Below are positions 698 through 22,680 of a DNA stretch of 64,000 nt, one piece after another. A model generated the notes under the pieces. The model ran no database searches and was not told the origin of the DNA. It saw only the letters and a program-made list of their open reading frames with translations. This DNA comes from Nitrospirota bacterium (GTDB lineage: Bacteria; JACPQY01). The translations under genes and the position numbers were made by a program. Location: assembly GCA_016180645.1 (NCBI GenBank), contig JACPAV010000021.1, positions 1 through 64,000 of the forward strand, in the 5' to 3' direction. The number at the start of each line of letters is the position of its first letter. Position 1 is the first letter of the stretch.

Positions 698-3600
698 TCA
701 AGGCAGGCCGGTCACTTGGACGGCCGTCGGACGGTTGGCCGTGCCTCCATCCCCGAGTTGGCCGGAGCCTCCGGCGCCCCAGCATCGGGCGGTCCCATCG
801 GAGACGGCGGCGCACGTATGACTGGCGCCTCCAGTCACCGCGACCGCGCCAGTGAGGGTTGAGACCGCCACCGAGGTGGGCTTGTCCGCCGTGCTCCCAT
901 CGCCCAACTGCCCGAAAATGTTGTACCCCCAGCATCGGACCGTGCCGTTGGCCAGAAGCGCGCAGGCGTGGTTGCTGCCCGCGGTGACCGCGAAGGCGTT
1001 CGTGAGCGTCGATGCGGCCACGGGTGTCCACCGATCCGAGCCGCTTCCATCCCCGATCTGGCCGAAGGCGTTGTATCCCCAACATTTGACTCCGCCGTCC
1101 GCCGAGAGGGCGCAAGTGTGGTAGTCGCCCACCGCAACAGCGACCGCTCCGGTAAGCGTGGAGACGGATACAGGAGTGGATTTGTTCACGGTTGTTCCAT
1201 CGCCGAGTTGGCCGCTTGTGCCTCTTCCCCAGCAGCGGACGGTGCCATCGGCGAGCAGCGCGCAGGAATGTGCGAATCCCGATGTCACGGCGATGGCTCC
1301 GGTGAGAGTCGAGACCGTGACGGGAGTGGATTTGTTCGCCGTCGTTCCATCCCCCAGTTGGCCCACGTCGTTTTTCCCCCAACACCTGATCGCACCGTCG
1401 GAGTGAAGCGAGCAGGTGTGTGAGGTCCCTCCTGTGAGGGCAACGGCCCCCGTCAGCGTTGAGATGGCCACGGGAGAAGTTTTCTGCGCGGAACTTCCAT
1501 CTCCGAGTTGGCCGAAATCATTCCGCCCCCAACAGCGGGCCGATCCATCCGAGATCAGCGAGCAGGTGTAGTAGTCTCCGGCCGTCAGGGAGGTTGCTCC
1601 GGTCAACGCAGGGACAATCGTCGGGGTCGATTTGTTCGTCGTGCTCCCATCGCCGAGCTGGCCGTTGCCGTTCCCTCCCCAGCATTTGACGGTTCCGTCC
1701 GAGAGCAGGGCGCATGAATGAATGTAGCCCGCGACGATGCCCTCGCGCCACGGTCTCGCCGGTGCGCCGGCCGCGGTGGCTTCATGCAGCCGGGCCAGTT
1801 TCACTCCCAGGGAGCCGGTGAGGCCGCCGACCGCAACCGGGATCGGGCGGTTGACCGTGGTTCCATCTCCGATCTGGCCGTAGAGATTGTATCCCCAGCA
1901 CCGAACCGATCCGTCCGAGACTGAAGCGCAGGTGTGGTAGGCTCCGCCCGTGATCGCCGCCGTGCCCGCGATCGTCGAAGCGGCCACGGGAGTGGATTTG
2001 TTCGCGGTTGTGCCATCCCCGATTTGTCCGTAGCTGTTTCCTCCCCAGCACCTGGCCGACCCATCCGAGATCAGGGCGCAGGTGTGACCGAGTCCGCCGG
2101 TCATGGCCGTCACGCCCGCGAGGGTGGAAACGGCCACCGGCGTGGGGCGATTGGTCGGCGTGCCATCGCCGATCTGGCCGCTGAAGTTGTTTCCCCAGCA
2201 CCGGACTGTTCCATCGGACACGAGAGCGCACACATGCTGGTCGCCCGCGGCCACGGCCACGGCGCCGGTAAGGGTGGAAACGGCCACGGGCGTGGTTTTT
2301 TGCGCCGTTGTCCCGTCTCCAACCTCGCCGCTGCTGTTGAGCCCCCAGCATCTGACGGTTCCGTCCGAGAGCAGGGCGCAACTCTGGCCCAATCCGGCCG
2401 TGATGGCCACCGCTCCGGTGAGGGTGGAAACGGCCACCGGCGTCGTTTTCTGGTTCGCCGATGTTCCATCTCCGAGTTGGCCGTTTGTATCGTTGCCCCA
2501 GCATCGGACCGTTCCGTCGAAAAGGAGGGCGCAAGTGTGCTCCTTCCCCCCCGCGAGCGTCACCACGCCGGTGAGAGTCGAGACGCCGACCGGTGTCGTT
2601 TTCTGAACGAGTGTTCCATCGCCGATCTGGCCATAATTGTTGAGCCCCCAACACCTGGCGGTTCCGTCCGCCGTGAGCGAGCAGGAATGGGCGTTGCCTC
2701 CGTTCAGCAGGATCGTGCTCGAAAGAGCGGGTACGGTGTTGGGGGTAAGACGATTTGCCGTCGTTCCATCGCCGAGTTGGCCGTAGGAATTGTACCCCCA
2801 GCACTTGGAGGTTCCGTCCGACGCGAGCGCGCAGGTGTGATATCCCCCTGCGGTGATTGCCTGAACGTTTCCGCCGGCTGGAGGCGGGCCGCCGAGGGTG
2901 GTGGCGGATTTTTCGACGGAGTTCGTGTCGCGGTTTCCGAGTTCGTCCTTGGCCCTCGCCACGAAAAAGTAGGTGGCCGAGGCGCTGAGGCCGGTGACGC
3001 TCTGGGAAGTGGCCCCTGCGACGGTGGTGTAGGTGGCGGTGAATGTGGTTGTGCAGGTGCCGGACGTGGTGGACTGGCAGATCTCGTAGACGAGGGTGCT
3101 GGAGGGGCTTACGTTGTCCGTGGCGGCGGCCCACGCGAGATCGATCTGGGAAGTGGAGACGGCGGCGGCGGAGGCGAGCCCGGCGAACGTGGGGGGCGAT
3201 ACATCCACCGTAAAGGTGAACGCTGCCGGTGAAGGGTCGGAGTTCCCTGATGAGTCTTTCGCCCGCACCTTGAATGTATGCGATCCGGACGTCAGCCCGG
3301 CGTAGGTTTTCGGCGAGGCACACGATGAAAACCCGCCTCCGTCCAAATCGCACTCGAAGGTGGCGGATGAATTCGAGCTGGTGAACGCGAAAGTGGCCGA
3401 CGGCTGACCGATGATCGCTGCGGGCTGATTCGTGATCGTTGTATCGAGGACGGTGAGATCGACCGTCCAGGTGTAGGAGGCGGGTGTGGGATCGCGGCTT
3501 CCGGAGGAGTCGACGGCGCGGACGCGGAAAGTGTGGCTTCCTTGAGTGAGGGGAGAGAGCGTGAGGGGAGAGGTGCAGGGAGCAAACGGAGCGGAATCCA

Positions 3601-5254
3601 GCGAACACTCGAAAGCGGCGGTAGCCAACGTGGAGGTGAACGAGAACGTGGCGGAGGTAAACCCGCTGGTGGCGGAAGGCTGGCCGGTGATTGTGGTGTC
3701 GAAGGCGCCCGGGGAGACGGGGGCGCTGGGATCGATCGTCCAGGTGACTGTGGCCGGAGATGCGTCGACCTGCCCCGCGGCGTCGATGGCACGGACTCGG
3801 AATATGTGACTGCCTTGAGTGAGAAGGGAGAGCGTGAGGGGAGAGGTGCAAGAGGTAAAGGGCGCGGAGTCGAGTGCGCACTCGAAAGTGGAGTTGGATT
3901 CGGAGGACGTGAAGGTGAACGTGGCCGAGGCGGAGGACGTGGCCGAGGGCGGCTTTTCCAAGATGAGGGTGTTGGGAGGGAGATCGAACTGTTTCACGGC
4001 TTCGGGATCGGCCGCCTGATCCGGGGTGATGACGTTGACGATGAGATCCACGGGGCTGGTATCGGTGTTTCCGATGTTGTCGGCCGACTTGATTTTGACG
4101 AGGTGCTCTCCCGGCGAATCGAACTTCCACGTGAAAGGCGATGTGCAGCCGAAGTAGGGGCCGCCGTCGATGGAGCAGGCGAACTTGCAAGCGGACGTTC
4201 CGGTGCAAGAGAAGGTGAAGGTGATGGGGATGCCGGTGATCGTCACCCCGGCCGGGAGCGCGGCGGCGGGCGTGCCGGGCTCGGCGGGGATGGAGGTGGC
4301 GGCCGTTTCCGGCGGCGTGAGCGTAATCCCCTGGGGATCGATGGAAACCTCCACGGTGATTCCCTGCTCCGTCTGGAGGGTTTGGCCGAGGTTCTTGCCG
4401 AGGAGGACCATCATGCCTCGAGTGAGATCCACGGAAGGTTTCTTTTGGGGGTCCCTGGCGTACTCCGGGCCGGCGGTGATCGTTTCGATGAGGGTGGAGA
4501 CGCCGTCCTCGTCGCCGTCGGGGAGTTGGACGATTTCGGGCGGGATCTCCTGCTCATCGATAACCAGCCCGCGCTTGTCTTTGGAGACGATGAGAGGCAT
4601 CTGAACGTCTACGAGGCTCAAGTCCGGTTCTTCCGGTGGGCTGATGACGATTCGCAGTCGGCGTTCGCCCGGCGCGAGAGATTTTTCTGGAATGGGAGCC
4701 GTGAATTGAAAGGCGAAGGCCGGGTCGTCGCTCGTGGCTCGTTTCTCGTGGCTCGCTTGAATTCGTGATCCCGTGACCCCGTAAGCCTGTGATCCCGAAG
4801 GATCCGCCTGGTTCACGGGTTCACGGGACGCGGGGTCACGATCTGGCGCTCCGCGTCGCCCACTTCCCGACGTGGCCGCGCGGATTCCTCCACGGACGCC
4901 GCTGACCACCTGTCCGCGAATCCCTTCGGCGGCGGACTGATCGTCGAGCCGGATTCCGGCCACGGCCCCTCGGAGGGCCTCGTCGGCGGTCGAAACGTCC
5001 TCCACGGCGGCAACACCTTCGGCGCGGCTCAGTTCATCCGCCCACTGCGGATCTTCCGCGCGCCGGCCTCCTCGCACGCCTGCCCGAATGCCTTCCAACG
5101 CCGCCGCCTGTTCCGCCGTGAGCGGGATCGCGAATTCCAGCTCGACCGCGCGCTCGCGCTTTTTGTCGGAGCATCCCGAGCAACCGGACAGATGAAGTAA
5201 ACAAAGGATCGCCGCCGGCGCCCACCATCCGCGCCGGAGGAACCCGAAATCCAT
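698..5254 (-). CDS. Giant lipoprotein: four Ig-like repeats, FN3, and 14 RCC1 repeats
   Basis: 1518 aa. A lipoprotein signal (hydrophobic core, then LSGC near residue 25) predicts a lipid anchor. Residues about 30-190 are charged, with repeated AEGIR/LEGIR-like helices. About 270-700 holds four related Ig-like repeats of the type CxLDxxxFxxCxSP...GSHxFxVRAxDxxG. A fibronectin type III domain follows (about 695-795). From about 800 to the end there are 14 RCC1-type repeats of about 50 aa (HTCAL..DG..RCWG.N..GQLGDGT), each with paired Cys. Repeats 1-7 and 8-14 are separated by an extra segment of about 20 aa, so two seven-bladed propellers are likely. Cysteines in each blade suggest an oxidising, extracytoplasmic location. 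The function is unknown; such repeats usually bind proteins. An in-frame palindromic segment lies at codons about 138-175. Confidence 0.85.
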   Translation of the reverse strand: MDFGFLRRGWWAPAAILCLLHLSGCSGCSDKKRERAVELEFAIPLTAEQAAALEGIRAGVRGGRRAEDPQWADELSRAEGVAAVEDVSTADEALRGAVAGIRLDDQSAAEGIRGQVVSGVRGGIRAATSGSGRRGAPDRDPASREPVNQADPSGSQAYGVTGSRIQASHEKRATSDDPAFAFQFTAPIPEKSLAPGERRLRIVISPPEEPDLSLVDVQMPLIVSKDKRGLVIDEQEIPPEIVQLPDGDEDGVSTLIETITAGPEYARDPQKKPSVDLTRGMMVLLGKNLGQTLQTEQGITVEVSIDPQGITLTPPETAATSIPAEPGTPAAALPAGVTITGIPITFTFSCTGTSACKFACSIDGGPYFGCTSPFTWKFDSPGEHLVKIKSADNIGNTDTSPVDLIVNVITPDQAADPEAVKQFDLPPNTLILEKPPSATSSASATFTFTSSESNSTFECALDSAPFTSCTSPLTLSLLTQGSHIFRVRAIDAAGQVDASPATVTWTIDPSAPVSPGAFDTTITGQPSATSGFTSATFSFTSTLATAAFECSLDSAPFAPCTSPLTLSPLTQGSHTFRVRAVDSSGSRDPTPASYTWTVDLTVLDTTITNQPAAIIGQPSATFAFTSSNSSATFECDLDGGGFSSCASPKTYAGLTSGSHTFKVRAKDSSGNSDPSPAAFTFTVDVSPPTFAGLASAAAVSTSQIDLAWAAATDNVSPSSTLVYEICQSTTSGTCTTTFTATYTTVAGATSQSVTGLSASATYFFVARAKDELGNRDTNSVEKSATTLGGPPPAGGNVQAITAGGYHTCALASDGTSKCWGYNSYGQLGDGTTANRLTPNTVPALSSTILLNGGNAHSCSLTADGTARCWGLNNYGQIGDGTLVQKTTPVGVSTLTGVVTLAGGKEHTCALLFDGTVRCWGNDTNGQLGDGTSANQKTTPVAVSTLTGAVAITAGLGQSCALLSDGTVRCWGLNSSGEVGDGTTAQKTTPVAVSTLTGAVAVAAGDQHVCALVSDGTVRCWGNNFSGQIGDGTPTNRPTPVAVSTLAGVTAMTGGLGHTCALISDGSARCWGGNSYGQIGDGTTANKSTPVAASTIAGTAAITGGAYHTCASVSDGSVRCWGYNLYGQIGDGTTVNRPIPVAVGGLTGSLGVKLARLHEATAAGAPARPWREGIVAGYIHSCALLSDGTVKCWGGNGNGQLGDGSTTNKSTPTIVPALTGATSLTAGDYYTCSLISDGSARCWGRNDFGQLGDGSSAQKTSPVAISTLTGAVALTGGTSHTCSLHSDGAIRCWGKNDVGQLGDGTTANKSTPVTVSTLTGAIAVTSGFAHSCALLADGTVRCWGRGTSGQLGDGTTVNKSTPVSVSTLTGAVAVAVGDYHTCALSADGGVKCWGYNAFGQIGDGSGSDRWTPVAASTLTNAFAVTAGSNHACALLANGTVRCWGYNIFGQLGDGSTADKPTSVAVSTLTGAVAVTGGASHTCAAVSDGTARCWGAGGSGQLGDGGTANRPTAVQVTGLP
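4731..4840. repeat. Palindromic/minisatellite segment inside the RCC1 gene, in frame
   Basis: The 11-mer CTCGTGGCTCG occurs at 4731-4741 and 4745-4755. It is followed by an imperfect inverted repeat, 4764-4782 against 4810-4840 (CGTGATCCCGTG / CACGGGACGCGGGGTCACG). The segment keeps the frame open and encodes low-complexity residues (ASREPVNQADPSGSQ) between the helical N-terminal part and the Ig-like domains. The same CGAGCCACGA core recurs inside the thiolase gene at 50427-50508. Confidence 0.6.
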
Positions 5255-5323: not shown

Positions 5324-7672
5324 TCAGTCCAGGGCCGTGAGTTCCGAGGGAGGAGGCGGGGGAGCCTTCGGGCCGTGCTTCTTGCGCGCGAAAGGGTTTC
5401 GAAATCTCTTCGGCTTCCTTGCGTCGGCCTCCGGCGTGTAGCCCCGGTATTGGTAGCGATACAAGTAGCGCGGGTAGAAATAGGGGCCGTGGTAGTCGAT
5501 GTCGTTCAGGACGAGCCCGAGGACGTTGGCGCCCGCCCCCTTCATCGATTCCACCGCGCGGAGCAGCATCTCCCGCGGCGTCCGACCGATGCGGTACACC
5601 AGGACCAACCCGTCCACGTGCGGCGCGATGACGGAGGCATCGGCCACCGGAAGGATCGGCGGGCAATCGACGATCACGATCTCGAATTCTTTTTTCAGCG
5701 TCTCGATCAAACCTCCTCGCATCAACTGTTCGAGCGTTTCGGAGGGGTGGACGGGCGTGGGGCCGGCGGGGAGGATGCGGAGTTTATCCAATCCCGGCGT
5801 GGTCTGAAGCGTTTTCGGGTCCAGCCCTTCGAGGAAGAAATCGTAGACGGTGCGGACAAGGGATTTCCACGGCGCGCCGTCGAGCACGATGTTGGTCAAC
5901 CCGCGCTCCGGTTTCATGGGAAAAATTTTGTGCATGGTCGGACGGCGGGTGTTCGCCTCCACGAGGAGCGTCGGGTACCCGGCCTGTGCGAAGGTAATGG
6001 CGAGATTCGAGGTGATGAAGGACTTTCCTTCCTGGGGCGTGGCGCTCGTCAGGAGGAACGCCCGATGTTTGACCGCCCCGCGGCGCATGCCCATCCGAAG
6101 GATCCTGAAGCTCTCGCCGACCGGATCCTTGGGCCAGAAATGGGCCACCATCTTGTCCTGATAATAAGGACGCGGGTTCGCGCCCTCCTCCTTCCGCTTC
6201 CTTCCCACGCGCCGGGCCTCGGCGCCCTCCGGATCGAAATGCGGAATGACCGACAGGACCGGGTGCCCGACCAAGGCCTCCACTTCCGCGACGTTGTCGA
6301 GGGAGAAATCGAACGACTCGCGCAGAAAGGCCAGTCCGATTCCCAGGATGAATCCGAAGGCGAGGAACGACAGCATGGGGGTGAGTTGCAGCCGCTTCGA
6401 GGCCGCGGCCGGCACGAGAGCGAGCTCGACGACGCGCACAAGGTCGCTCGTGTAACTTTGCTCGTACTGCGCGGTCTGCCAGGCCTTCTCCATTTCGTCC
6501 AGCATGCTTTGCCGTCGTTCCACGTTCCGCTCCAGCCGCACGAGCTGGATCTGATCTTCCAGGACCGTCAGTTTGGATGCTTCGAGCCGGCCGCGCGCGT
6601 CGGCGATTTCCCCTTCCTCGCGCCCCACGTCATCCAGCGTTCGCCGGAGCACGAGGACCAATTGTTCCTGGTCCTGGCGAAGTCGATCCCCGAGGCTGTG
6701 CACCTGGGGGTGAGCGGTGGTGAATGAGCTTTCGAGTTCTCTTTTCTCGGAAAGCGTCCGCACGAAATCGGCGCGATGCTGTTCGTAGTCCTCCGGCGCG
6801 CCGGCAAAAACGAGGGTGGGCACCGTTCCCCCGCGGGCGTAGTCCTCTTGAAGCAAGGTGTCGAGGATCCTGGCGACGGCCTTTCTCCTTTCGACCAGGG
6901 CCTCCTCCCGTTCTTCCAGATCGATCAGACGCCTGAGTTGGAGGTTCAGCGAGGCTTCCGCTTCCATCATGCGGTGCGACATCTTGAAATCGGCGAGCTC
7001 CCTTTCGGCTTGATCGAGTTGGCCATCCAGCCGCTTGCGCTGATCGGCCGACGAGGAGTGGGCTTGGTCGGCTCTCTCCCTCGTCCGCCTGTTCCGGTGG
7101 TCCCTGTAGGCTTCGGCGGTGAAATTGGCGATATCGCGGGCCTCCTTCGCATCGGCGGCCGTCACCTCGATATCCATGATCATCGTCCCCGGCCGCTCGA
7201 TCACGCGGATCTTGGACTGAATCTCCTTCACGGCGCGAAGGTGCTCCTGGTGGGCGGAGATCGACTCCTCCGTGGAATCGGGTGGAATCCGCCCGAGGCG
7301 TCGGGCCACCTCCATGACGACGGGCACACTGGTGACGATGTAGCCTTCCGTCTTCGTGTCGGTCCAGGAATACCCCCGTCCTCCGGGAGCCATGGTGAAG
7401 AATTGGTCGAGTTCCACGCTGGACCGGGTGCGGAAAACGGGTTCCTGGCTTCGGATGAAGGCGAGAGACACGATGAAGGAGACGGTTACGGTGAGGATGA
7501 CGATGTGTTTCCGCTTCAGAATGATCTTCAGGACATCCGGAAGGGAGGCGTGGTGTTCGTGTGGGCGGGGCGTCGGCGGGACGGGGGGGGCGGGGGGATT
7601 CACGGGCGGCGCGTAGAGGGATCGCTCAGGCCATGCGGTGTGAGGGTCCTTCGTGGCCGGCGACCGAGGCAT
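5324..7672 (-). CDS. Wzc-like polysaccharide co-polymerase / BY-kinase-like protein, copy A
   Basis: 782 aa. A Pro-rich N-terminus is followed by a first membrane segment (about 52-72), a periplasmic Wzz-type domain, a long coiled coil (about 190-420), a second membrane segment (about 445-465) and a cytoplasmic P-loop kinase domain. Walker A is SATPQEGKSF (about 543-552) and Walker B is VIVDCPP (about 666-672). The Walker A' reads LVEANTRRP where bacterial tyrosine kinases have DxDxR, so both acidic positions are changed (Glu and Asn). A cluster of eight tyrosines (DIDYHGPYFYPRYLYRY...) and a basic, Pro-rich tail end the protein. The family controls exopolysaccharide chain length or export through C-terminal Tyr phosphorylation. 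The ATG at 7672 overlaps the HD-GYP gene by 47 bases and has no good ribosome site, so the start is uncertain. Confidence 0.85.
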   Translation of the reverse strand: MPRSPATKDPHTAWPERSLYAPPVNPPAPPVPPTPRPHEHHASLPDVLKIILKRKHIVILTVTVSFIVSLAFIRSQEPVFRTRSSVELDQFFTMAPGGRGYSWTDTKTEGYIVTSVPVVMEVARRLGRIPPDSTEESISAHQEHLRAVKEIQSKIRVIERPGTMIMDIEVTAADAKEARDIANFTAEAYRDHRNRRTRERADQAHSSSADQRKRLDGQLDQAERELADFKMSHRMMEAEASLNLQLRRLIDLEEREEALVERRKAVARILDTLLQEDYARGGTVPTLVFAGAPEDYEQHRADFVRTLSEKRELESSFTTAHPQVHSLGDRLRQDQEQLVLVLRRTLDDVGREEGEIADARGRLEASKLTVLEDQIQLVRLERNVERRQSMLDEMEKAWQTAQYEQSYTSDLVRVVELALVPAAASKRLQLTPMLSFLAFGFILGIGLAFLRESFDFSLDNVAEVEALVGHPVLSVIPHFDPEGAEARRVGRKRKEEGANPRPYYQDKMVAHFWPKDPVGESFRILRMGMRRGAVKHRAFLLTSATPQEGKSFITSNLAITFAQAGYPTLLVEANTRRPTMHKIFPMKPERGLTNIVLDGAPWKSLVRTVYDFFLEGLDPKTLQTTPGLDKLRILPAGPTPVHPSETLEQLMRGGLIETLKKEFEIVIVDCPPILPVADASVIAPHVDGLVLVYRIGRTPREMLLRAVESMKGAGANVLGLVLNDIDYHGPYFYPRYLYRYQYRGYTPEADARKPKRFRNPFARKKHGPKAPPPPPSELTALD

Positions 7673-8564
7673 CCTTAATGGTGATCATCGGATGGAGTCG
7701 AAGGTCGAGGATCTCGCCGGTGGGTCCATCGGGACCGTCCTCCAAGAGTTCCACCACGGGGTTCATTGGCGTATCGGGATTCGGCGACCGAACACGCGCC
7801 ATACGCCCCGTGGAAAGCCGCACGAGCGAGCCCGGAGGGTAGGGAGTGACCGTGCGAAGCGCGGCCATCAAGACGCGTTTTGGGAAATGCTCGCGCGAGT
7901 CCTTGACGAGGAGCGAAAACCCGTCGAGAAAAGACTTCGGCTTGCGATAGGGCCGGTAGTGCGTGAGGCTTTCGATCGTGTCGCAGAAGCCGACGATTTT
8001 CGCAAAATATTCGATTTCGTCGCCGTGCAGCCCGTGCGGATAGCCGGTCCCGTTCTGGCGCTCCTGTTCGTGAAGCGCGATGCGCGAGAAGACGGCCCTC
8101 AGACCCGACTCGCTGAGAATGCGGAAACCGATCTCGGGATGTGTTTCCACGATTTTGCGCTCCCGTTCGGTCAGGGGCCGCTGCATGTGGACGATTTCCC
8201 TGGGGAGGTCGAACATTCCCACGTCATGCAACAGCCCGCCCGCTCCGAGGATGAGAAGGTCTTGCCCGCCGATCTCCAGTTCGTGGCCCATGGCCATCGC
8301 CAGGATGCTGACATTGATGGAATGGTCATAGAGAAAATCGGATTCATAGTCCCGAGACGAAGGCGCGAAGATCTGGGCCAGCCACAAGAGTTCATGGCTC
8401 CGCAGGCTGGAGAGCACTTCCGCAAGAGTCAGGAAGATTCGATGATCCCTGACGTCAGTTCCATTCCGGACGTGATCGACAAAATGGTGGAGGTCATCAC
8501 GGAGCGTGGAGGTCAACCGATCGACCTCTGGCTCCCCCTCCCTCAGCCCATTTCCGTTATGCAT
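7626..8564 (-). CDS. HD-GYP-like domain protein, copy A (degenerate active site)
   Basis: 312 aa, cytoplasmic. The core HD is present (LLHDVGM, about residue 113), as is GYP (GTGYPHGLHGDEI). Two parts of the canonical HD-GYP signature are altered: HDxGK has become HDVGM, and the HHE triplet before RxDGxGYP has become EQE. The domain may therefore bind c-di-GMP or act as a scaffold rather than hydrolyse it; that is inference. A C-terminal extension (PYPPGSLVRLS...) is typical of HD-GYP proteins. It lies upstream of, and overlaps, the Wzc-like gene, an arrangement repeated at 19.5-22.7 kb. Confidence 0.8.
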   Translation of the reverse strand: MHNGNGLREGEPEVDRLTSTLRDDLHHFVDHVRNGTDVRDHRIFLTLAEVLSSLRSHELLWLAQIFAPSSRDYESDFLYDHSINVSILAMAMGHELEIGGQDLLILGAGGLLHDVGMFDLPREIVHMQRPLTERERKIVETHPEIGFRILSESGLRAVFSRIALHEQERQNGTGYPHGLHGDEIEYFAKIVGFCDTIESLTHYRPYRKPKSFLDGFSLLVKDSREHFPKRVLMAALRTVTPYPPGSLVRLSTGRMARVRSPNPDTPMNPVVELLEDGPDGPTGEILDLRLHPMITIKDASVAGHEGPSHRMA

Positions 8565-9926: not shown

Positions 9927-9974
9927 TTCGAGGCCGAACCCCATGCCGAGGACGGTATGGGGTTCGGCCTCGAA
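9927..9974 (+). terminator. Long perfect hairpin after the DUF3179 gene
   Basis: An 18-base arm (9927-9944) is perfectly complementary to 9957-9974 with a 12-base loop. It begins six bases after the stop codon. There is no U-tract, so termination would not be the classical intrinsic type. The right arm ends exactly at the boundary of the repeat unit at 9975. Confidence 0.5.
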
Positions 9975-10116
9975 GAGCGTCTAACAGAATGCGTAGGGGA
10001 GGGTCTTCAGACCCTCCCGACAAGAGGGAGCAAGTAGGGGAGGGTCTTCAGACCCTCCCGGCAAGAGGGAGCATCTGAAGATGCTCCCCTACGAATCGGC
10101 ATTCTGTTAGACGCTC
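9975..10116. mobile_element. 142-bp MITE/REPIN-like unit with 18-bp terminal inverted repeats (copy A)
   Basis: The left end GAGCGTCTAACAGAATGC (9975-9992) is the exact inverse of 10099-10116. Between the ends lie three hairpins, each headed by GTAG: 9993-10018, 10034-10059, and one inverted at 10067-10092 (ending CTAC). Stems such as GGGAGGGTC or GGGAGCATC enclose a TTCA loop. GAA flanks both ends (9972-9974, 10117-10119), compatible with a 3-bp target duplication. No transposase is encoded. Confidence 0.7.
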
Positions 10117-10135: not shown

Positions 10136-10300
10136 TCAGGAGTCTCTGTTCGACGCGGCGCACGCCCCTTGTCCGGGCCTCTTGCCGCACGACACGAGCG
10201 CGGACTCTTCGAAAATCTTCTCGGACTCGATCCGGGGCGGCTCGTACTTCGCCTTGGCGCCATCTTTCTCCTGTTCGGGTTTTCCCGGTTTGCCGTCCAC
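10136..10300 (-). CDS. 54-aa peptide with C-terminal Cys-Gly-Lys...Cys motif, coupled to the giant secreted protein
   Basis: The GTG start at 10300 shares a base with the TAG stop of the preceding 1611-aa gene (TAGTG), so translation is probably coupled. The first 18 residues are Lys/Glu/Gly-rich. The end reads KYEPPRIESEKIFEESALV, then SCGKRPGQGACAASNRDS. The layout (PPRI.SEK.FE..AL..CGK...G.C....R.S) resembles small peptides seen in environmental bacteria whose last 20-25 residues carry two Cys and end in Arg-x-Ser. I recall that pattern but cannot name a family. A RiPP-like precursor or a small Cys-containing partner of the secreted protein are options. No modification enzyme is adjacent. 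Confidence 0.6.
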   Translation of the reverse strand: MDGKPGKPEQEKDGAKAKYEPPRIESEKIFEESALVSCGKRPGQGACAASNRDS

Positions 10301-13300
10301 TATGGCGTGGGATCCACAATCCACATCGGGAGGTACCACACGTTGCCGCCCACGCCGCCGAGAACGAGGTAGGTGTAGTTGAGGTCCGGCACGAGGCTGC
10401 CGGCCAGACTGACGCCGAGGTTGAACGGGTAGCCGTTCGATGTGAGCTGGACGGGGCTCTTGAGCGTGCAGCAGTTGGTGGTGATGTCGTAGGCGAAGAC
10501 CTTGCCCACCGTGTTCGAAAAGTAGAGGACGCCCTTGTACACGACCGGTTGGGACCGGATGGGGTTCGTTCCATCGGGCTGGACGGGGAAGCCCGTGCAG
10601 GCGGCCCCGGTCGATTCGACGACGCAGTGGAGCTTGCCCGTGTCGTCCCCGAAGAAGATCCCGCCGTGCGCGAGCCACGGTTGGAGCGCCTTGGAAGGTC
10701 CCACGCCCCCGCCGCCGGTGTACCCGCCGGTGAAGTTGGTGTAATCGGTGAAGTCGCTCTTGTTGAATACGCGGAGCGCCCCCGCCGATCCGGACGCCGT
10801 CGGGACGTAAAACCGGCCCTGGGTGATGTGCATCCAGGGCAAGCCGTAGACCGCGTAGCCGCCGCCGATGTTCTTGGTCAATGTGGCCGGTGCGGTGTCC
10901 GGCGTGAGGAGGCCGTCCGCCGCGGTAGTGGCCTGGAATTCGGTGACGCCCCTCGCGCCCGTGCCTGCCACGTACACGCGCAGGTTGGTGGCGCTCGCGT
11001 TGTACTGCATGGCCGTGCTGTCCTCCGTAGGCGGATTGGCGTCGACATCGACGCACTTGTAGATGTACGGGGCCGTCGAGCCGGTGCAGTTTGTCGTGTT
11101 GCAGTAGGTGTTGGAGGCGTTGTTGTTCCAGCAGACCGAGCAGACGTAATCAACGGCCGCCCCGGTCTGCGCGCCGAAATAGATCATTTCGTTGTCGCCC
11201 TGCACACCTGTGGTGATTTTGTTGAAAGTGACGGCCGATCCCTTGCAGGCCGTGCCGCCTCCGGTGTATCCACCCGTGTAGCCTGTTTCGATGCCGATGG
11301 CCGAGCCGGTAAACGTGGCGCCGACCATTTTCCCCGTGGTCGTGCCGAACCAGATCCATTCCTTTTCCGTTCCGGCGCAGGTATTGGCGCCCCAGTTCTG
11401 CGTGTAGGCCCACACGGTGCCCACGCCGTCCCCGCAGGCGCCCCCACACAGCGTGTCCACGGCGGCGGAGGCGCGCAGGTCGGTTCCCGCCGAGTTGACG
11501 ACGTAGATTGAATCTCCGCTTCCGGCCGCCCCTTCGCGCGAGAGGACGAACGTGCCCAGGAACGTATCGCCCGCCGTGCCCGCGAGGTCTGAGTCGTAGT
11601 CCGACTGCGCCTGTGTACACTGTGTCCATATGTTGGCGCCGAACGCTTGGAGGGTGCCGCGGATGACGGACAGACTTCGGACTCCCGCGTCGAAGGTCCC
11701 CGAGATTCCCGGGGGGGAACCGAGGGCGACATTGGAGTTCCCGCTGTCGCAGATCGACGAGCCGCAACCGGCGTTCTGGATGGTGATCGTATCGCCGGCG
11801 GCCACCGTGGCGCCCGAACCGGGCGTGATGGTCAGCTTCTGATTGGTATCCCAGGAGCAACTGGGCCCGGACCCCCAACCGTGTGAACTGCTGAGCAGGA
11901 GATACGTCAGAACGCCCGGGCACGTCGCCTGGTTTGTCGCGGAAGAGAATTCGAGGATGACGCGATCGCCGGCGGAAAGGCCGGCCGTCGGCGTCCCCGC
12001 CGTGTCCGTGGCGGTAGCCAGGATCAAATCGGGCGCCGAGCCGTTCGTGGTGAAGTCGGTGTCGTTGGGATCCGTATTGGCCCCGTAGGCGGTCCATGCG
12101 ACGGATGATGAACCGAGGCTGTCCATGGTCCGCGCCTGCCAGTGGTAGGAGCCGTTCGACAGGCTCAGGGATACCGTTTGGCTCGACCCGCTCGCCACAT
12201 ACGTCGTGGCGGAAACGGTGGGCACGCCGGTGAAGGCGATGCCGACCGCCTTGACTTCAACTTGCAGCTTGACTGTGTCGGAATCGGGGTCGGTCATCGT
12301 GGCCGTGAACTTGACCGTATTGGAAGTGATGGAACCGCCTTGGGCGATGGGCGTGTCGTTTCCGTCGGCTTGAGATGGGGAAGTCGGTGCGTTGGGCGCG
12401 GTGGTGGTCGGCGTGGCGCAGCGTTCCACGGTGTTGGTATCCTGGTTCCCCATGGCGTCGCGGGCCCGCGCGACGAAACAGTACTGTGTGCCCGCCGTCA
12501 GGCCGGTATCGGTGTAGCTGGTGCCGGTGAACCCGCCGGGGGGCACCGCGTTCGACGGCCCGGGCGTGAAGCCGGTGGATCCCCTGTAGATGTTGTACGT
12601 CACCGGTTCGGAGGCATCGCTCCCGGCGGCCCAGGAGACCGTTACGCAGCCGCTGCCGCAGGTGGTGACTGCCGAGGTGGCGCCCGCGAACGTCGGCGGC
12701 GTCGTGTCGGTGGAAACGCCTCCGATATCGAATTCATCGATGTTCCATCCGGACAGCGCCACCGCGTTGTCCGTCGTCAAGTTGAACCGGATTTGGAGGG
12801 ACGTCTGTCCGTCCCAGGCGTTGGCCGGGCTCGGCGCCACCTCGTGCAGGAACCACGCGGCGTCCCGCACGCTTCCGCTCCCCGCTGTCGCGCCGGCGGT
12901 CCACACGTCGGTGAAGCTGCATCCCCCTCCCGCGCACGCTTGAATGCGCGCGATGTCGTAGCCGTTGCCCTCGTGGTTCAGCCACCGCCGGTAACGGATT
13001 TTGATGTTGGAGCGATTGGCGCAGTTGAAGGCGACGGAGGTGAGGTTGATCGTCTGATTGTTCGGATAGTCGCCCGACAGGTTGTTTCCCCACACCTTCC
13101 CGTTCCCGCTCGTGGCCCCGTATCCGCTCGGAGGGTCCGGGTTGCCCGCCGCGCTTCCACCCGAGCCGGTGGGCGTGCCCCAGGCCACATTCGCGCTGCT
13201 GGGCGTCCAGCCGCCGTTGTTCGACTCGAAATCGTGCGGAGGTTGGTTGGTGGGGCTGTAGCAAGAGATGAAATTGGCGCTGGGCGCGGCCGACTTCTCC

Positions 13301-15135
13301 ACCGTATTCGTGTCCTCTTGGGCCAGATTGTCCTTCGCGCGGACGACGAAGTAGTAGGTGGTGCCGTTCGTGAGGCCCGATGCGCGGTAGGAGGTGTTGG
13401 TCGTGCTGAACGTAGGCGAGCTGTAGTTCTGGCCGCCGGACGTGGTGGAGTAATAGATGTTGTAGGTGATGGGCGGTGAGGCGTCGTTCGCGGCCGCCCA
13501 TTGGAGGTCCACGAAGCCGCCCTTCCCCGGATCGCTTGCCGCCTCGAGACCCATGAAATCGGGCGGCGCGGTATCCACCGTGTTCACATAGCCTGATGCC
13601 GAACTGTAGGATCCCTCGTTTCCGGCGCCGTCCTTCGCCGCCACATGGAGGTAGTAAAACTTGTCCAGGGCAATGCCGTTCTGCCCGGAGGTGAGCGTGG
13701 TGCTCGTGGCGCTGCTGCCGATCAAGCCGTTGTATCGCAGGGTGCAGGTGCCGAAGTTCGGCGTGGCGGGGGAGGGATACTCGCAGACCTGAAGCCTGTA
13801 GTCCGCGATCCCGGACGGGTCGGTCGGCGCCGTCCACGTGGCCGTGATGTTGAGGTCCGAACTGGTGGAGCCATCCGACCAAGAAGGGCTTGTGGGGGCG
13901 CCCGGAGGAGTCGAGTCGCCCTGGATCTGGGCGGAGAGGCTGTAGGTGGTCGTCCCGTTGGCGTAGTCGTTGACCCAGATAGCGTAGGTGCCGGGGGAAA
14001 GCGAGACCGTGATCGACTCGTTGGCCGTGCCGGTATTGATGCTGGACCCCAATTGAGTCTGAAAGGTCTCGTCGTACACGTAGAGGTCGCAATCCACCGA
14101 GAGTCCGGTGAGATCAACCTTGACGCTGACCGAACCCGAGGAGCCGAGGACCATTTTCCAGAAGTCGTCCTCCTTGTCCGTGCTGCTGTTGAAGGCGCCG
14201 GACTGGACGCCGCCCGTCGTGGGGAGAGGGCAGATGGAGCTTCCGAAGGGACCGTTGTTGCGGTCGTTGGCGCTGCTGTCCGGTTCGGAGCAGTAGAAGG
14301 TTTTGAGAGTGTAGGTGGTGGAAGCGGAACCGATGGCGCGGGCCCGCACGTAGTAGGTGCGCGCCGAGAGGGCGGTCGAACCGCCGTCCACCCATTCGTC
14401 CGTGCTGCCCGTTCCCGCCGAGGAGTCCAGAAGCGTGCTCGGCCCGGAATCGTAGAGGTCCAAGTCCACGTTGGCGGAGAGTCCCGTCAGCCGGACGGTG
14501 AACTTTCCGGTGGAACTGGTCGCCGCGCTCCACCAGTCGGCGGTGTCCACGCTCGCGTTGATGTTTCCCGCGTACGTGCCGGTGGTGGGGAGGTGGCAGA
14601 CCTTGGATTCGTTGTAGGCGTTGTTCAGATCTCCGCTGGTGGCGGCCTCGTCGCACAGCTTCGTCACCGTGGCCCACACCCTGTAGTTTGAATCGGCCGT
14701 CCCGTACATGTTGACGAGCACGTAATACGTGCCTGGCGTGAGGCCGGACGCCGTGAGCTGCTCCGCGGTCGTGCCGGAATTCGCCGAGGAGGCGATTTCG
14801 TTCAGATCGCCGTTGTAGAGATGGAGGTCCACGTCCGAACCTAGCGTGTCCATATCGACGGTCAGGTTGGCCCAATCCGAGAGGACAAACTTCCAGTAGT
14901 CCCGACACAGCGCGCTCGGAGTCACGCCGTTGCACCTGCTGCCCCCGCTCACGTAGTCCGAGATGCCGTTGTTGGAGCCGGGCTGGGTTGTGGGAAGCGT
15001 GCATATGTCCGTGTTGTTGATGTAGTTATTGTTGTCGCTCAGGAGGAGCGGCTCGAGGCAGGCATGGGCGGAACCGCTTCGCAACATGAACCACAACGCC
15101 GCCGATACCGCCGTCGCCCAGACCCGCTTTCTCAT
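10300..15135 (-). CDS. Giant secreted multidomain protein (PPC, FN3, jelly-roll and propeller-like domains)
   Basis: 1611 aa. A signal peptide (MRKRVWATAVSAALWF..., cleavage near SAHA) directs export. Three pre-peptidase C-terminal (PPC) type domains follow (about 30-170, 172-295, 300-410), recognisable from DVDLHLY / NVDLDLY / DCDLYVY and GTYYVLVN-like strands. Next come FN3-like domains (about 410-625), a jelly-roll-like segment (about 630-800: DFESNNGGW ... NIDEFDIGG), further FN3-like domains (about 800-1020), a beta domain and a C-terminal PQQ-type propeller-like region (about 1130-1611: GIFFGDDTGKLHCVV, GVLYFSNTVGKVFAYD). Many Cys suggest an oxidising location. No protease or sorting motif was found. 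Its ATG overlaps the upstream lipoprotein stop, and its stop overlaps the 54-aa peptide start, so the three form one operon. Confidence 0.8.
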   Translation of the reverse strand: MRKRVWATAVSAALWFMLRSGSAHACLEPLLLSDNNNYINNTDICTLPTTQPGSNNGISDYVSGGSRCNGVTPSALCRDYWKFVLSDWANLTVDMDTLGSDVDLHLYNGDLNEIASSANSGTTAEQLTASGLTPGTYYVLVNMYGTADSNYRVWATVTKLCDEAATSGDLNNAYNESKVCHLPTTGTYAGNINASVDTADWWSAATSSTGKFTVRLTGLSANVDLDLYDSGPSTLLDSSAGTGSTDEWVDGGSTALSARTYYVRARAIGSASTTYTLKTFYCSEPDSSANDRNNGPFGSSICPLPTTGGVQSGAFNSSTDKEDDFWKMVLGSSGSVSVKVDLTGLSVDCDLYVYDETFQTQLGSSINTGTANESITVSLSPGTYAIWVNDYANGTTTYSLSAQIQGDSTPPGAPTSPSWSDGSTSSDLNITATWTAPTDPSGIADYRLQVCEYPSPATPNFGTCTLRYNGLIGSSATSTTLTSGQNGIALDKFYYLHVAAKDGAGNEGSYSSASGYVNTVDTAPPDFMGLEAASDPGKGGFVDLQWAAANDASPPITYNIYYSTTSGGQNYSSPTFSTTNTSYRASGLTNGTTYYFVVRAKDNLAQEDTNTVEKSAAPSANFISCYSPTNQPPHDFESNNGGWTPSSANVAWGTPTGSGGSAAGNPDPPSGYGATSGNGKVWGNNLSGDYPNNQTINLTSVAFNCANRSNIKIRYRRWLNHEGNGYDIARIQACAGGGCSFTDVWTAGATAGSGSVRDAAWFLHEVAPSPANAWDGQTSLQIRFNLTTDNAVALSGWNIDEFDIGGVSTDTTPPTFAGATSAVTTCGSGCVTVSWAAGSDASEPVTYNIYRGSTGFTPGPSNAVPPGGFTGTSYTDTGLTAGTQYCFVARARDAMGNQDTNTVERCATPTTTAPNAPTSPSQADGNDTPIAQGGSITSNTVKFTATMTDPDSDTVKLQVEVKAVGIAFTGVPTVSATTYVASGSSQTVSLSLSNGSYHWQARTMDSLGSSSVAWTAYGANTDPNDTDFTTNGSAPDLILATATDTAGTPTAGLSAGDRVILEFSSATNQATCPGVLTYLLLSSSHGWGSGPSCSWDTNQKLTITPGSGATVAAGDTITIQNAGCGSSICDSGNSNVALGSPPGISGTFDAGVRSLSVIRGTLQAFGANIWTQCTQAQSDYDSDLAGTAGDTFLGTFVLSREGAAGSGDSIYVVNSAGTDLRASAAVDTLCGGACGDGVGTVWAYTQNWGANTCAGTEKEWIWFGTTTGKMVGATFTGSAIGIETGYTGGYTGGGTACKGSAVTFNKITTGVQGDNEMIYFGAQTGAAVDYVCSVCWNNNASNTYCNTTNCTGSTAPYIYKCVDVDANPPTEDSTAMQYNASATNLRVYVAGTGARGVTEFQATTAADGLLTPDTAPATLTKNIGGGYAVYGLPWMHITQGRFYVPTASGSAGALRVFNKSDFTDYTNFTGGYTGGGGVGPSKALQPWLAHGGIFFGDDTGKLHCVVESTGAACTGFPVQPDGTNPIRSQPVVYKGVLYFSNTVGKVFAYDITTNCCTLKSPVQLTSNGYPFNLGVSLAGSLVPDLNYTYLVLGGVGGNVWYLPMWIVDPTP

Positions 15136-19473: not shown

Positions 19474-21759
19474 TTACTCGAGAAAGTTGAGGGGTGGTAC
19501 GCCGCCTGTGGTCTGGGGCGGGGTTGGCGAGGGAGGTGCAGCGCGACGCCACGGCCACTTCCGTCCTCGGAGCGTCGGCCGCGGGCGGGCATCGGCCTCG
19601 GGGGTGTAGCCCTTGCGCTGATAGCGGTAAAGATAGCGAGGATAGAGATAGGGGCCTTGGTAGTCGATGTCGTTCAAGACCATCCCGATCAGATTCGCTC
19701 CTACGCCTTTCATCGTATCGACGGCGCGAAGGAGCATGTCCCTGGGCGTACGCCCGACCCGGTAGACCAGGACGACGCCGTCCACGTGGGGCCCGATCAC
19801 GGCGGCGTCCGCCACCGGAAGGATGGGAGGGCAGTCGATGATGACCACCTCGAAATCTTTCTTCACCTCCTCCAGGAAATGCCGGTTCATGAGCTGCTCG
19901 ATCGTCTCGGAGGGATGAACCGGTGCTGGACCGGCCGGAAGAATTTTCAAGTTCTCCAATCCTGGAAACCTTTGAACCGACTTGGGATCCAGCCCGTCGA
20001 GGATCAAGTCGTAGATCGAACGGACCACCTCTTTGTAACCGACGCCGTCGGTGGTGATGCTGGTCAGGCCTCGATCGAGCCGGAGCGGGAAAATCTTGTG
20101 CAGGGTGGGACGCCGGGTATTCGCTTCGATGAGCAGCGTGGAATAGTTCGATTGGGCAAACGCAATCGCGAGATTGGAGGTGACAAACGACTTGCCTTCC
20201 TGCGGCGTGGCGCTCGTGACCAGGAACACCTGGCGGTCGCTCCGCCCCCTTCGCATCCCCATCCGCAGGATTCGGAAAGCCTCGCTGGTAGGGTGCTTGG
20301 GGTAGTAGTGGGCCACCATGGCGGTGTCGGGCGGGATCTTGGAACCCGCTGGATCGGACGACGGGGAGGAGCGGCCGTTCCCGCTTTCGCGGAGATCGAA
20401 ATGGGGGATGACGGAAAAGACCGGAAGTTTCACCAAGGCCTCGATTTCGGAAACGTTCTCCAGAGAAAAATCGAAAGCTTCCCGGAGGAACGCCAGTCCC
20501 AATCCCACGATGAGGCCCATGAGCAGGATGGGAATAACCGGGGCCAGGCCGAACTGGGATTTGTCCGGATGCGCGGGCAGGAGCGCGTATTCGATGACCC
20601 GGACGAAGTCATCCCGATTTCGCGATTCGAATTCGGCGGTTTGCCACGCCTTCTGCATCTCATCCAGCATCTCCTGGTCGTGCTCGACTTTCCGCTGGAG
20701 CCGTACGAGCTGGATCTCATCCTCCAGGTAGCTTGTTTTGGCCGCTTCAATCCGGTTCTTTTGCATGGCGATGTCGTTTTCCCGGCGGAGGATTTGCAAT
20801 TCGAGTTGTTCGATCGTTCGTATGAGATCCAATCGCAGGCTCTTGAGCCGGGAATCCAATTCCAGGATGACAGGATGTTGCGGGGTCAGTTCGGACGTCT
20901 TCTCCTGTTTTTCCGAAAGAACGCGGATGAAATTCTGCCGGAGCTGCTCATAGTTGGGCGGCGCGTTGGGGATGTCGAGCGAAGGCAGGCTGGGCTGGCG
21001 CTCCAGGTACGGTGCCTGTAGCGCCTGCAGGGTTTCCCCCAAAGCCGATTTCTGATTCTCGAGGTCCTCCTGTATCTCCTCAAGTTCGATCAGCTTGGAA
21101 AGGTGGAGCTTCAACGAGGATTCGACCTCCAGGAGTCGGTGCGAGATCTTGAACTCCCCGAGCGCGCGCTCGTCCGCTTCCAACGCGGCTTCCAGCCGCA
21201 TCCTCTGCTTTCGGGCCGCTTCCTGGGCGGTGGCGGACTGCTCCCGGCTGTTGAGCCCTCGGTACCATTTGTAGGCCTCGGCCGTGAGGTTGGCGATGTC
21301 GCGCGACTCCTTCGCATTCGACGACGTGACCTCGATATCGACGATGGAGGTTCTCTGTCGTTGCCGAGGGCGGATCATCCCCTGGATGGATTTGACGATG
21401 GGAAAGTACTGGTCGTTCTGGAGGATCTCCTCGTGCTTGAGGTCCGCCGGAATGCGGCCGAGCTTCCGGGCCACTTGGATGACCACCGGGAGGCTGTTGA
21501 CCACATGCACTTCCGTGCTCAGGTCCGTCCACGCGAAGCTTGTGCCCCCAGGGGCGGCGTAGGAGACCTGCTGAATTTCGACACTCGCCTGGGTGCGGTA
21601 AGACGTCCCCCGGGTCCGCGTGAACACGACCGACAGCACGATGGAGACGGACAAACATAGGAGGATGATCCACTTTCTCTTGAGGATGACCCGCGAGATG
21701 TCGAGGATCGAAGGCTTCGGCCCGGCAGATCCTTGGGCCGACGGACGGCTCTCGGGCAT
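19474..21759 (-). CDS. Wzc-like polysaccharide co-polymerase / BY-kinase-like protein, copy B
   Basis: 761 aa and clearly paralogous to the 5.3-7.7 kb gene along its whole length. First membrane segment about 30-50, Wzz-type periplasmic part, coiled coil about 165-410, second membrane segment about 428-447, then the kinase-like domain: Walker A SATPQEGKSF, altered Walker A' LIEANTRRP (not DxDxR), Walker B VIIDCPP, seven tyrosines in DIDYQGPYLYPRYLYRY... and a basic Pro-rich tail. The ATG at 21759 directly follows the TAA of the HD-GYP-like gene, so the two are co-translated. The shared Walker A' change suggests a distinct subfamily rather than random decay. Confidence 0.85.
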   Translation of the reverse strand: MPESRPSAQGSAGPKPSILDISRVILKRKWIILLCLSVSIVLSVVFTRTRGTSYRTQASVEIQQVSYAAPGGTSFAWTDLSTEVHVVNSLPVVIQVARKLGRIPADLKHEEILQNDQYFPIVKSIQGMIRPRQRQRTSIVDIEVTSSNAKESRDIANLTAEAYKWYRGLNSREQSATAQEAARKQRMRLEAALEADERALGEFKISHRLLEVESSLKLHLSKLIELEEIQEDLENQKSALGETLQALQAPYLERQPSLPSLDIPNAPPNYEQLRQNFIRVLSEKQEKTSELTPQHPVILELDSRLKSLRLDLIRTIEQLELQILRRENDIAMQKNRIEAAKTSYLEDEIQLVRLQRKVEHDQEMLDEMQKAWQTAEFESRNRDDFVRVIEYALLPAHPDKSQFGLAPVIPILLMGLIVGLGLAFLREAFDFSLENVSEIEALVKLPVFSVIPHFDLRESGNGRSSPSSDPAGSKIPPDTAMVAHYYPKHPTSEAFRILRMGMRRGRSDRQVFLVTSATPQEGKSFVTSNLAIAFAQSNYSTLLIEANTRRPTLHKIFPLRLDRGLTSITTDGVGYKEVVRSIYDLILDGLDPKSVQRFPGLENLKILPAGPAPVHPSETIEQLMNRHFLEEVKKDFEVVIIDCPPILPVADAAVIGPHVDGVVLVYRVGRTPRDMLLRAVDTMKGVGANLIGMVLNDIDYQGPYLYPRYLYRYQRKGYTPEADARPRPTLRGRKWPWRRAAPPSPTPPQTTGGVPPLNFLE

Positions 21760-22680
21760 TTAGGCGAGCGCCTCTCCGATGGTGATCATGGGATATCGGC
21801 GAAGGTCCAGGAGCTGTTCGGTGCCCGCTCCGTTCTCATGCTCAAGGATCTCCACCACGGGTTTCATGGGAGTCTCGGGATTGGGCTTGTGCACCCGCGC
21901 CAGTTTTCCGCTGGAGAGCTTCACCAGGGAACCGGGTGGATAGGGGGTGATGCGCCGGAGGGCGGCCAGCCAAAGATGGCGCGGGAATTGATCCCGAGAC
22001 TGTCCGAGGAGAAGTGAAAATCCGTCGAAGAATGATTGAGGCGCGCGGTGGGGCCGGAAGTGGGTGACACTCTCGACCGAATCGCAAAAGCCCACGATCT
22101 TGGCCAGGTGCTCAATCTCCTCTCCCCTCAAGCGATGCGGGTAGCCGCTCCCGTCCTCGCGTTCCTGTTCCTGAAGCGACAGCCTGGAGAAAGCTTTCTT
22201 GAGCCGGGAGTCTTGGAGGAGCCGGGCGCCTCGCTCCGGATGTGTCTGAACCACCTTGCGCTCCTCCTCGGTGAACTTCCTTCCCACCTTGAGGAGATCC
22301 TCCGGAAGATCGAACATGCCGACGTCGTGCAGGAGTCCGCCAGCGCCGAGGATGAGAAGATCCTTGCCCTCCACGGACATCTCCCGGCCCAAGGAGAGGC
22401 TCAGAATGGCCACGTTGATGGAGTGGTCATAAAGGAAGTGGGATCGATACTCGCCTTCGTTGGGATGGAAGACGGATTTCAGCCATCCGTCGGGATGAAG
22501 GGCAAGGTCGGAAGCCATTTCGGTCAGGATGGAGAACAAACGGTGCTCCTCGGTGTCCCGCCCGTTTCGCAGGCGATCGACAAAACGCATCAATTCCTCG
22601 CGCGCGGTGCGCACCAGCGAATCAATGCGTTCCCGTTCGCGGGCGGCCACCCTTGATTCATCACGACCCGTGCTGCTCAT
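21760..22680 (-). CDS. HD-GYP-like domain protein, copy B (degenerate active site)
   Basis: 306 aa, paralogous to copy A. It keeps LLHDVGM and GSGYPHRLRGEEI. The Lys of HDxGK is Met, the HHE triplet is EQE, and the preceding His of copy A is also lost (LQEQE). The conserved C-terminal extension reads PYPPGSLVKLSSGKLARV. A strong AGGAGGG ribosome site precedes ATG 22680. It likely reads c-di-GMP or another signal and passes it to the Wzc-like partner encoded immediately downstream; loss of catalysis is inference from missing metal ligands. Confidence 0.8.
   Translation of the reverse strand: MSSTGRDESRVAARERERIDSLVRTAREELMRFVDRLRNGRDTEEHRLFSILTEMASDLALHPDGWLKSVFHPNEGEYRSHFLYDHSINVAILSLSLGREMSVEGKDLLILGAGGLLHDVGMFDLPEDLLKVGRKFTEEERKVVQTHPERGARLLQDSRLKKAFSRLSLQEQEREDGSGYPHRLRGEEIEHLAKIVGFCDSVESVTHFRPHRAPQSFFDGFSLLLGQSRDQFPRHLWLAALRRITPYPPGSLVKLSSGKLARVHKPNPETPMKPVVEILEHENGAGTEQLLDLRRYPMITIGEALA

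Follow-up and report, generated by a model that had tools for sequence, protein, structure and literature searches.

A 54-codon gene overlapping the stop codon of a giant secreted protein gene is probably a RiPP precursor of an unnamed family

A frame of 54 codons that opens on the stop codon of a gene for a giant secreted protein is found in the 64,000-nucleotide stretch of DNA analyzed here (called the window below). This raises the question of whether so short a frame is a gene and, if so, of which kind. A first-pass annotation had described a GTG start overlapping the stop of the 1611-aa gene (TAGTG), a product of 54 amino acids, an SCGK motif, a second Cys and a terminal Arg-Asp-Ser, and all of these are confirmed. 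The GTG occupies positions 10300-10298 of the minus strand and has one base in common with the TAG of the giant gene (10302-10300); the stop codon of the frame ends at 10136. The full peptide, VDGKPGKPEQEKDGAKAKYEPPRIESEKIFEESALVSCGKRPGQGACAASNRDS, carries SCGK and the second Cys and terminates in N-R-D-S. The features concerned are the following.

10300..15135, minus strand: gene of the 1611-aa secreted protein, with three PPC and two fn3 stretches; its C-terminal 575 aa are conserved in a second genus
10298..10302, minus strand: TAGTG overlap of the giant-gene stop and the peptide GTG start
10136..10300, minus strand: probable RiPP precursor peptide gene, 54 aa, proposed from the frame, its homologues and a six-peptide profile
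10185..10246, minus strand: block YEPPRIESEKIFEESALVSCG, conserved in relatives, with the leader motif YxxPxI, FE..AL and the start of the Cys-Gly-Lys
10139..10189, minus strand: putative core CGKRPGQGACAASNRDS, with the second Cys and the terminal Ser; we infer the core start, and cleavage is putative

The open frame alone is little proof of a gene, because the same frame stays open for 337 codons upstream, within the giant gene. Upstream of the GTG there is no Shine-Dalgarno sequence, so that the start would lean on the overlapping stop codon; the start codon is thus an inferred one. Third codon positions have a G+C content of 0.80. The peptide matched no Pfam or NCBIfam model, and the open-access literature gave no description naming the peptide family.

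The case for a gene comes from relatives, which the first-pass annotation had proposed to look for and which were found at three distances: in the same genome, in a second genus and in another phylum. Two paralogues are encoded in the same genome (G000), on contigs C8 (E 7.0e-6) and C16 (E 9.6e-6). A fourth member, on contig C22 of a genome from a second genus (G001), was detected at E 7.1e-5 with a profile built without that peptide; these two genomes make up the sample of the phylum. Moreover, a profile made from six operonic peptides of another phylum placed this frame at the top of the 1230 frames of the window (E = 6.3e-10), the next-best frame reaching E 1.7 and the best frame of the reversed window, used as a control, 0.32. 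The same profile matched the C16 copy (4e-9), the C8 copy (1.2e-4) and the second-genus copy (3.2e-3). A more divergent peptide on contig C5 gave no significant match to it (0.023). Comparison of a 22-codon block with paralogues gave 7/4/10, 7/4/9 and 11/4/14 changes at the first, second and third codon positions. Changes are fewest at second and most at third positions, a pattern that protein-level selection would produce, with the caveat that the block is short. To judge from these comparisons, the 54-codon frame is a real gene, since paralogues, a second-genus relative and the profile from another phylum all point to it.

Further members were collected with the pattern YxxPx[IV], then FE/LE/ME..[AS]L, then Cys. 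This yielded 25 different peptides from 12 genomes of five lineages. Two sequences were left out of the 25: that of G129, which has AGK for CGK, and that of G190, which lies at a contig end. The C-terminal residue, which is not part of the pattern, is Ser in 24 of the 25 peptides and Thr in the remaining one; by comparison, 16 of 183 long frames of the window's own genome end in Ser. At least one further Cys follows the motif in all 25. The Cys-Gly-Lys after which the first-pass annotation named the peptide is no hallmark of the family: CAK, CCK, KK, CDD or AGK stand at this place in other members. As one member (G129) reads AGK and keeps its terminal Ser, not all members need the first Cys. 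YxxPxI, FE..AL and the terminal Ser are the more general features of the family. A short gene with a conserved leader-like part followed by a variable core corresponds to the general description of a RiPP precursor.

The reach of the family depends on the search used. A profile that included the terminal Ser matched 24 of 386 genomes at E <= 0.05, with distant matches aligned only to about position 31 of 41. Nine of these genomes were counted as family by reading (G000, G001, G086, G105, G129, G150, G190, G266 and G288) and the other 15 (E >= 0.0024) were set aside as unproven, among them G162, where a 19-codon frame carries YTPPEI..IFE. A strict DNA pattern found only the three own-genome copies in the 386 genomes, with two matches for a control pattern; it missed the G001 and G086 members because it fixes the spacing before the Cys. 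Matches in two Bacteroidota loci (L011 and L012) were rejected as due to chance, the motif standing at the end of larger proteins and lacking FE..AL..CGK, and so was a match on contig C7 (L004, E 3.06).

Gene neighborhoods in other phyla bear on the nature of the peptide. The nearest relative outside the phylum, in G086, lies between a PqqD gene and a radical-SAM gene. In the phylum of G086, the peptide is present in 6 of 95 genomes, and all six peptides occur in the order HprK-like kinase, PqqD (a leader-binding protein), peptide, radical-SAM/SPASM enzyme. Pairs of a radical SAM and a peptide also occur in G150, G288 and G266. The "leader/core look of a ribosomal peptide" noted by the first-pass annotation is thereby borne out, and the conserved neighbors that it proposed to look for include modification enzymes beside the operonic homologues as well as a giant secreted protein in two genera. 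By reading of the stretches examined, 10 of the 25 peptides adjoin a radical SAM and 15 do not, nine of the latter belonging to a single genome (G105). With at least half of the copies orphaned, searches based on enzyme neighborhoods would overlook such peptides. The orphans of G105 (L121-L126) number at least nine, among them a group of two and a group of three adjacent peptides, with the core CDDYxYYxKDYEGC...GRGK...C...S. Orphan members of G150 and G288 (L115, L116 and L118) have a long Gly/Ser/Thr-rich insert between the first and last Cys.

The radical SAM encoded on contig C8 of the window's genome was also used as a query, and gave 17 loci in 15 of 241 genomes. Small frames with [YW]xxPx[ILVM] and a Cys 8-20 residues further on were found at 12 of these 17 loci, vs 3 in the reversed sequences; 40 shuffles gave a mean of 2.98 and a maximum of 6, and three or four of the 12 frames resemble chance frames by eye. 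In G087, a looser YxxP peptide belongs to an operon that also encodes a giant C25-peptidase protein, a radical SAM, an archaeal-type signal peptidase (61.5 bits against a cut-off of 51.85), an HprK-like kinase, PqqD, an NTP_transf_5 protein, Wzz, Wzy and a flippase.

In the window itself, no maturase, PqqD or kinase was matched. Candidate enzymes are encoded elsewhere in the genome. Seven radical SAM/SPASM matches were obtained, including those of C8 and C5. The C8 paralogue lies a few bases 3' of the C8 radical-SAM/SPASM gene and has a good ribosome-binding site; this linkage comprises the radical SAM and no PqqD. A homologue of this enzyme occurs in G001 (57% identity); about 150 bases of contig remain downstream of it, and they contain no peptide. 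The peptide beside the C8 enzyme is of the window type, and the C5 enzyme is nearer to the operonic radical SAMs (42% identity, vs 32-33% for that of C8), so that the window peptide could be served by either. PqqD is found as a stand-alone protein on C2, in two copies on C5 and as a fusion on C52; in G001, whose genome is 84% complete, there was no close match to the stand-alone C2 protein. HprK-like kinases are encoded on C5 and C32, with a counterpart on C33 of G001. The C32 and C33 kinases are only 32% identical and both keep His, GxSGxGK and DE, in line with the H, GxSGxGK and DD/DE positions retained in family-linked kinases. The C5 genes form a mixed cluster (L055, C5:131001-151000) with HD_5, Wzc-type, lasso-cyclase-like, kinase, PqqD and radical-SAM genes, to which a YxxPxL peptide, an ABC exporter, a lasso B2 gene and a second PqqD are added. 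The YxxPxL peptide beside the C5 kinase has a terminal Asp and no terminal Ser.

We consider it probable, with good confidence, that the window gene encodes a RiPP precursor of an unnamed family, modified by PqqD, radical-SAM and kinase enzymes that probably act in trans. In published work, YxxP leaders are bound by stand-alone RREs, and the HprK-like kinases of such clusters phosphorylate a terminal Ser or Ser3; it is on these precedents that the roles of leader binding and of the kinase are proposed. Thus, the YxxPxI leader would bind to a RiPP recognition element of the stand-alone PqqD type, the Cys-containing C-terminal part would be modified by a radical-SAM/SPASM enzyme, and the HprK-like kinase would phosphorylate the terminal Ser, which by analogy is a likely kinase target. 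The leader would then be removed, perhaps by a cut before the first Cys. Since the window copy is an orphan with no enzymes nearby, it would probably be modified in trans, by a radical SAM from C8 or C5, a PqqD from C2 or C5 and a kinase from C32 or C5. Points against this reading are that the window gave no enzyme match, that the peptide next to the C5 kinase ends in Asp, that the second genus gave no close match to the C2 PqqD, that the window start has no ribosome-binding site and that the C32 and C33 kinases differ widely.

The coupling to the giant secreted protein, to which the first-pass annotation had drawn attention, recurs in the second genus. In G001, the peptide gene has an ATG start and a strong ribosome-binding site and lies directly 3' of a gene for a 2252-aa secreted protein; over 605 positions, the C-terminal parts of this protein and of the 1611-aa protein share 40% identity. 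As the G001 peptide follows a protein with a related C-terminal part, the pair of giant protein and peptide exists in two genera, and the copy behind the giant gene is the sole peptide found in G001. The C16 peptide gene lies upstream of a large secreted protein gene. Searching the PDB sequences with the giant protein gave no match, and an AlphaFold model of its conserved C-terminal 575 aa (mean pLDDT 33.6) was discarded. Translational coupling may allow the window peptide to be made in step with the giant protein, and the two may act jointly. It is from two genomes and gene neighborhood that a link between peptide and giant protein, and any surface role, are suggested.

An alternative is that the window copy is decayed or fortuitous, persisting through its position after the giant gene and giving no product. 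It is indeed an orphan, it has no ribosome-binding site and a repeat element lies directly downstream. This possibility is nevertheless unlikely, because the window copy retains an intact leader motif, its two Cys and the terminal Ser, and because the coupling is also found in another genus, there with an ATG and a strong ribosome-binding site.

Alternatively, the peptide may be the precursor of a lasso peptide, with the B1, B2 and cyclase genes of C5 providing its processing in trans. The window sequence YEPPRI conforms to the lasso leader motif YxxPx[LIV], and the YxxPx[LI] spacing fits lasso leaders; C5 has a PqqD/B1-like gene, lasso-cyclase-like genes and a B2 above the NCBIfam cut-off (42 bits vs 33); and phosphorylated lasso precursors with Val at -2 are described in PMC10368454. 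However, assuming that the core starts at Cys38, CGKRPGQGACAASNRDS has no Asp or Glu at ring positions 7-9, its only Asp being at position 16. Moreover, the lasso-cyclase model is missed on C5 (282-329 bits vs a cut-off of 525), and the operonic homologues are without a B2 or cyclase match in the stretches searched. The C5 B2 and Asn-synthase queries found no match in the window, L113 or L133-L138. A lasso precursor is therefore very unlikely.

The least likely reading is that the peptide is no RiPP and serves the giant protein as a small Cys-containing partner, a chaperone or a lipoprotein: it would account for the adjacent, coupled start kept in two genera and for an LVSC that resembles a lipobox, but by inspection of the sequence no hydrophobic signal stretch precedes the Cys, the homologues of other phyla adjoin RiPP enzymes and not this giant protein, the C8 and C16 paralogues adjoin other genes, and the "Cys-rich small partner" of the first-pass annotation has no support of its own.

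Beyond the 3' side of the peptide gene are two genes that form a pair.

7626..8564, minus strand: HD_5 domain protein, first of the pair
5324..7672, minus strand: GNVR/Wzc-type polysaccharide co-polymerase with a tyrosine-kinase-like part (NCBIfam eps_fam above cut-off)

Of the five YxxP peptides in the phylum's two genomes, four have such a pair nearby: in G000, three of four (those of the window, C16 and C5, and not that of C8) lie within 15 kb of GNVR/Wzc and HD_5 genes, and so does the G001 peptide. With eight GNVR places in 4.7 Mb, the chance of three of four lying near one is about 5e-4, a post hoc estimate that includes the divergent C5 peptide; at the five other GNVR places of G000, no YxxP peptide was found in the stretches scanned. 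The window contains two HD_5 and GNVR/Wzc pairs (5324-8564 and 19474-22680), which are 54-57% identical to each other, and no other polysaccharide genes are named with either.

Other elements are visible in the window. Directly 3' of the peptide gene lies a MITE- or REP-like element of 142 bp (9975-10116). Its terminal inverted repeats, 18 nt long and perfect, enclose two direct repeats of 40 nt and a third copy in inverted orientation; near the matching place, the second genus has a transposase-like ORF. A 22-nt near-perfect hairpin at 9927-9974, between the convergent peptide and DUF3179 genes, is likely their shared terminator. A 1518-aa protein encoded at 698-5254 combines an OmpL47-type domain with 14 or more RCC1 repeats.

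It can be imagined that several precursors, each co-produced with a different giant surface protein or polysaccharide-export locus, share one set of radical-SAM, RRE and kinase enzymes in a dispersed RiPP system whose product serves as a surface tag or linker. This extension is possible, if doubtful; were it true, a phosphorylated, cross-linked peptide might join the giant protein or an exopolysaccharide via its terminal phosphoserine. The recurrent neighbors, giant secreted proteins and Wzc/GNVR genes, make a cell-surface role of phosphorylated YxxP-leader RiPPs testable. As to the first-pass remark that the peptide has no described function, it stands insofar as no Pfam or NCBIfam model matches, and not insofar as the kind of gene is already known; it is the family that is without a name in the libraries searched.

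Several known systems invite comparison. ScmC (kinase-like), ScmD (PqqD-like) and ScmE/ScmF (radical SAM) of SynChlorMet are among the nearest NCBIfam models. The scores are far below the cut-offs (26-33 of 125 bits for ScmC, 19-41 of 100 for ScmD and 92-105 of 400 for ScmE), SynChlorMet was rejected, and the open-access literature held nothing on it. The C8 radical SAM resembles the mycofactocin maturase MftC, compared here along with the PQQ enzyme PqqE, over its full length (137.5 bits); the MftC cut-off of 265 is not reached, the peptide matches no NCBIfam model, MftA included, and mycofactocin was rejected. A Cys-containing core with SPASM enzymes would fit a sactipeptide or ranthipeptide, the thioether bond being invisible in sequence.

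The closest published relatives are the phosphorylated lasso peptides and the linear polyphosphorylated peptides (LPP) of Bacillota, each with a defining set of traits that the present family shares in part. An HprK-like kinase phosphorylates the highly conserved C-terminal Ser of paeninodin (PMC9266682) and Ser3 of BsfA (PMC10368454). Paeninodin-type lasso peptides (kinase PadeK) resemble the family by the YxxP/WxxP leader, the PqqD-like B1 and the C-terminal-Ser kinase (PMC9266682); they differ in that the window core is without a ring acceptor and its operonic homologues have a radical SAM beside them, the stretches searched giving a match neither to B2 nor to a cyclase. In LPP, the phosphorylated residue is Ser3 of the core (PMC13381572); the window peptide lacks a Ser at the corresponding position, and its conserved Ser is the terminal one. 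The LPP leader YxxPxVLxHQxIxFETxxS is not reproduced as a whole: YxxP, I/V and FE are common to both, and HQ, the spacing and Ser3 differ; the peptide was not accepted as an LPP. Radical-SAM/SPASM enzymes are central in the present family, whereas "radical SAM" occurs 0 times in PMC13381572, whose authors describe the roles of paeninodins and LPPs as unknown. What the present family brings to this comparison is that radical-SAM chemistry, an HprK-like kinase and an almost invariant terminal Ser occur together. As for features in common with LPP, the leader YxxPxV...FET is near the family's YxxPxI...FE[T], both have a stand-alone RRE and an HprK-like kinase, and in both the clusters lie in the vicinity of polysaccharide genes (PMC13381572). 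The looser YxxP peptide of G087 can be compared with LPP as well, its neighbors including an archaeal-type signal peptidase, the NTP_transf_5 gene, an HprK-like kinase and PqqD, with a radical SAM in addition.
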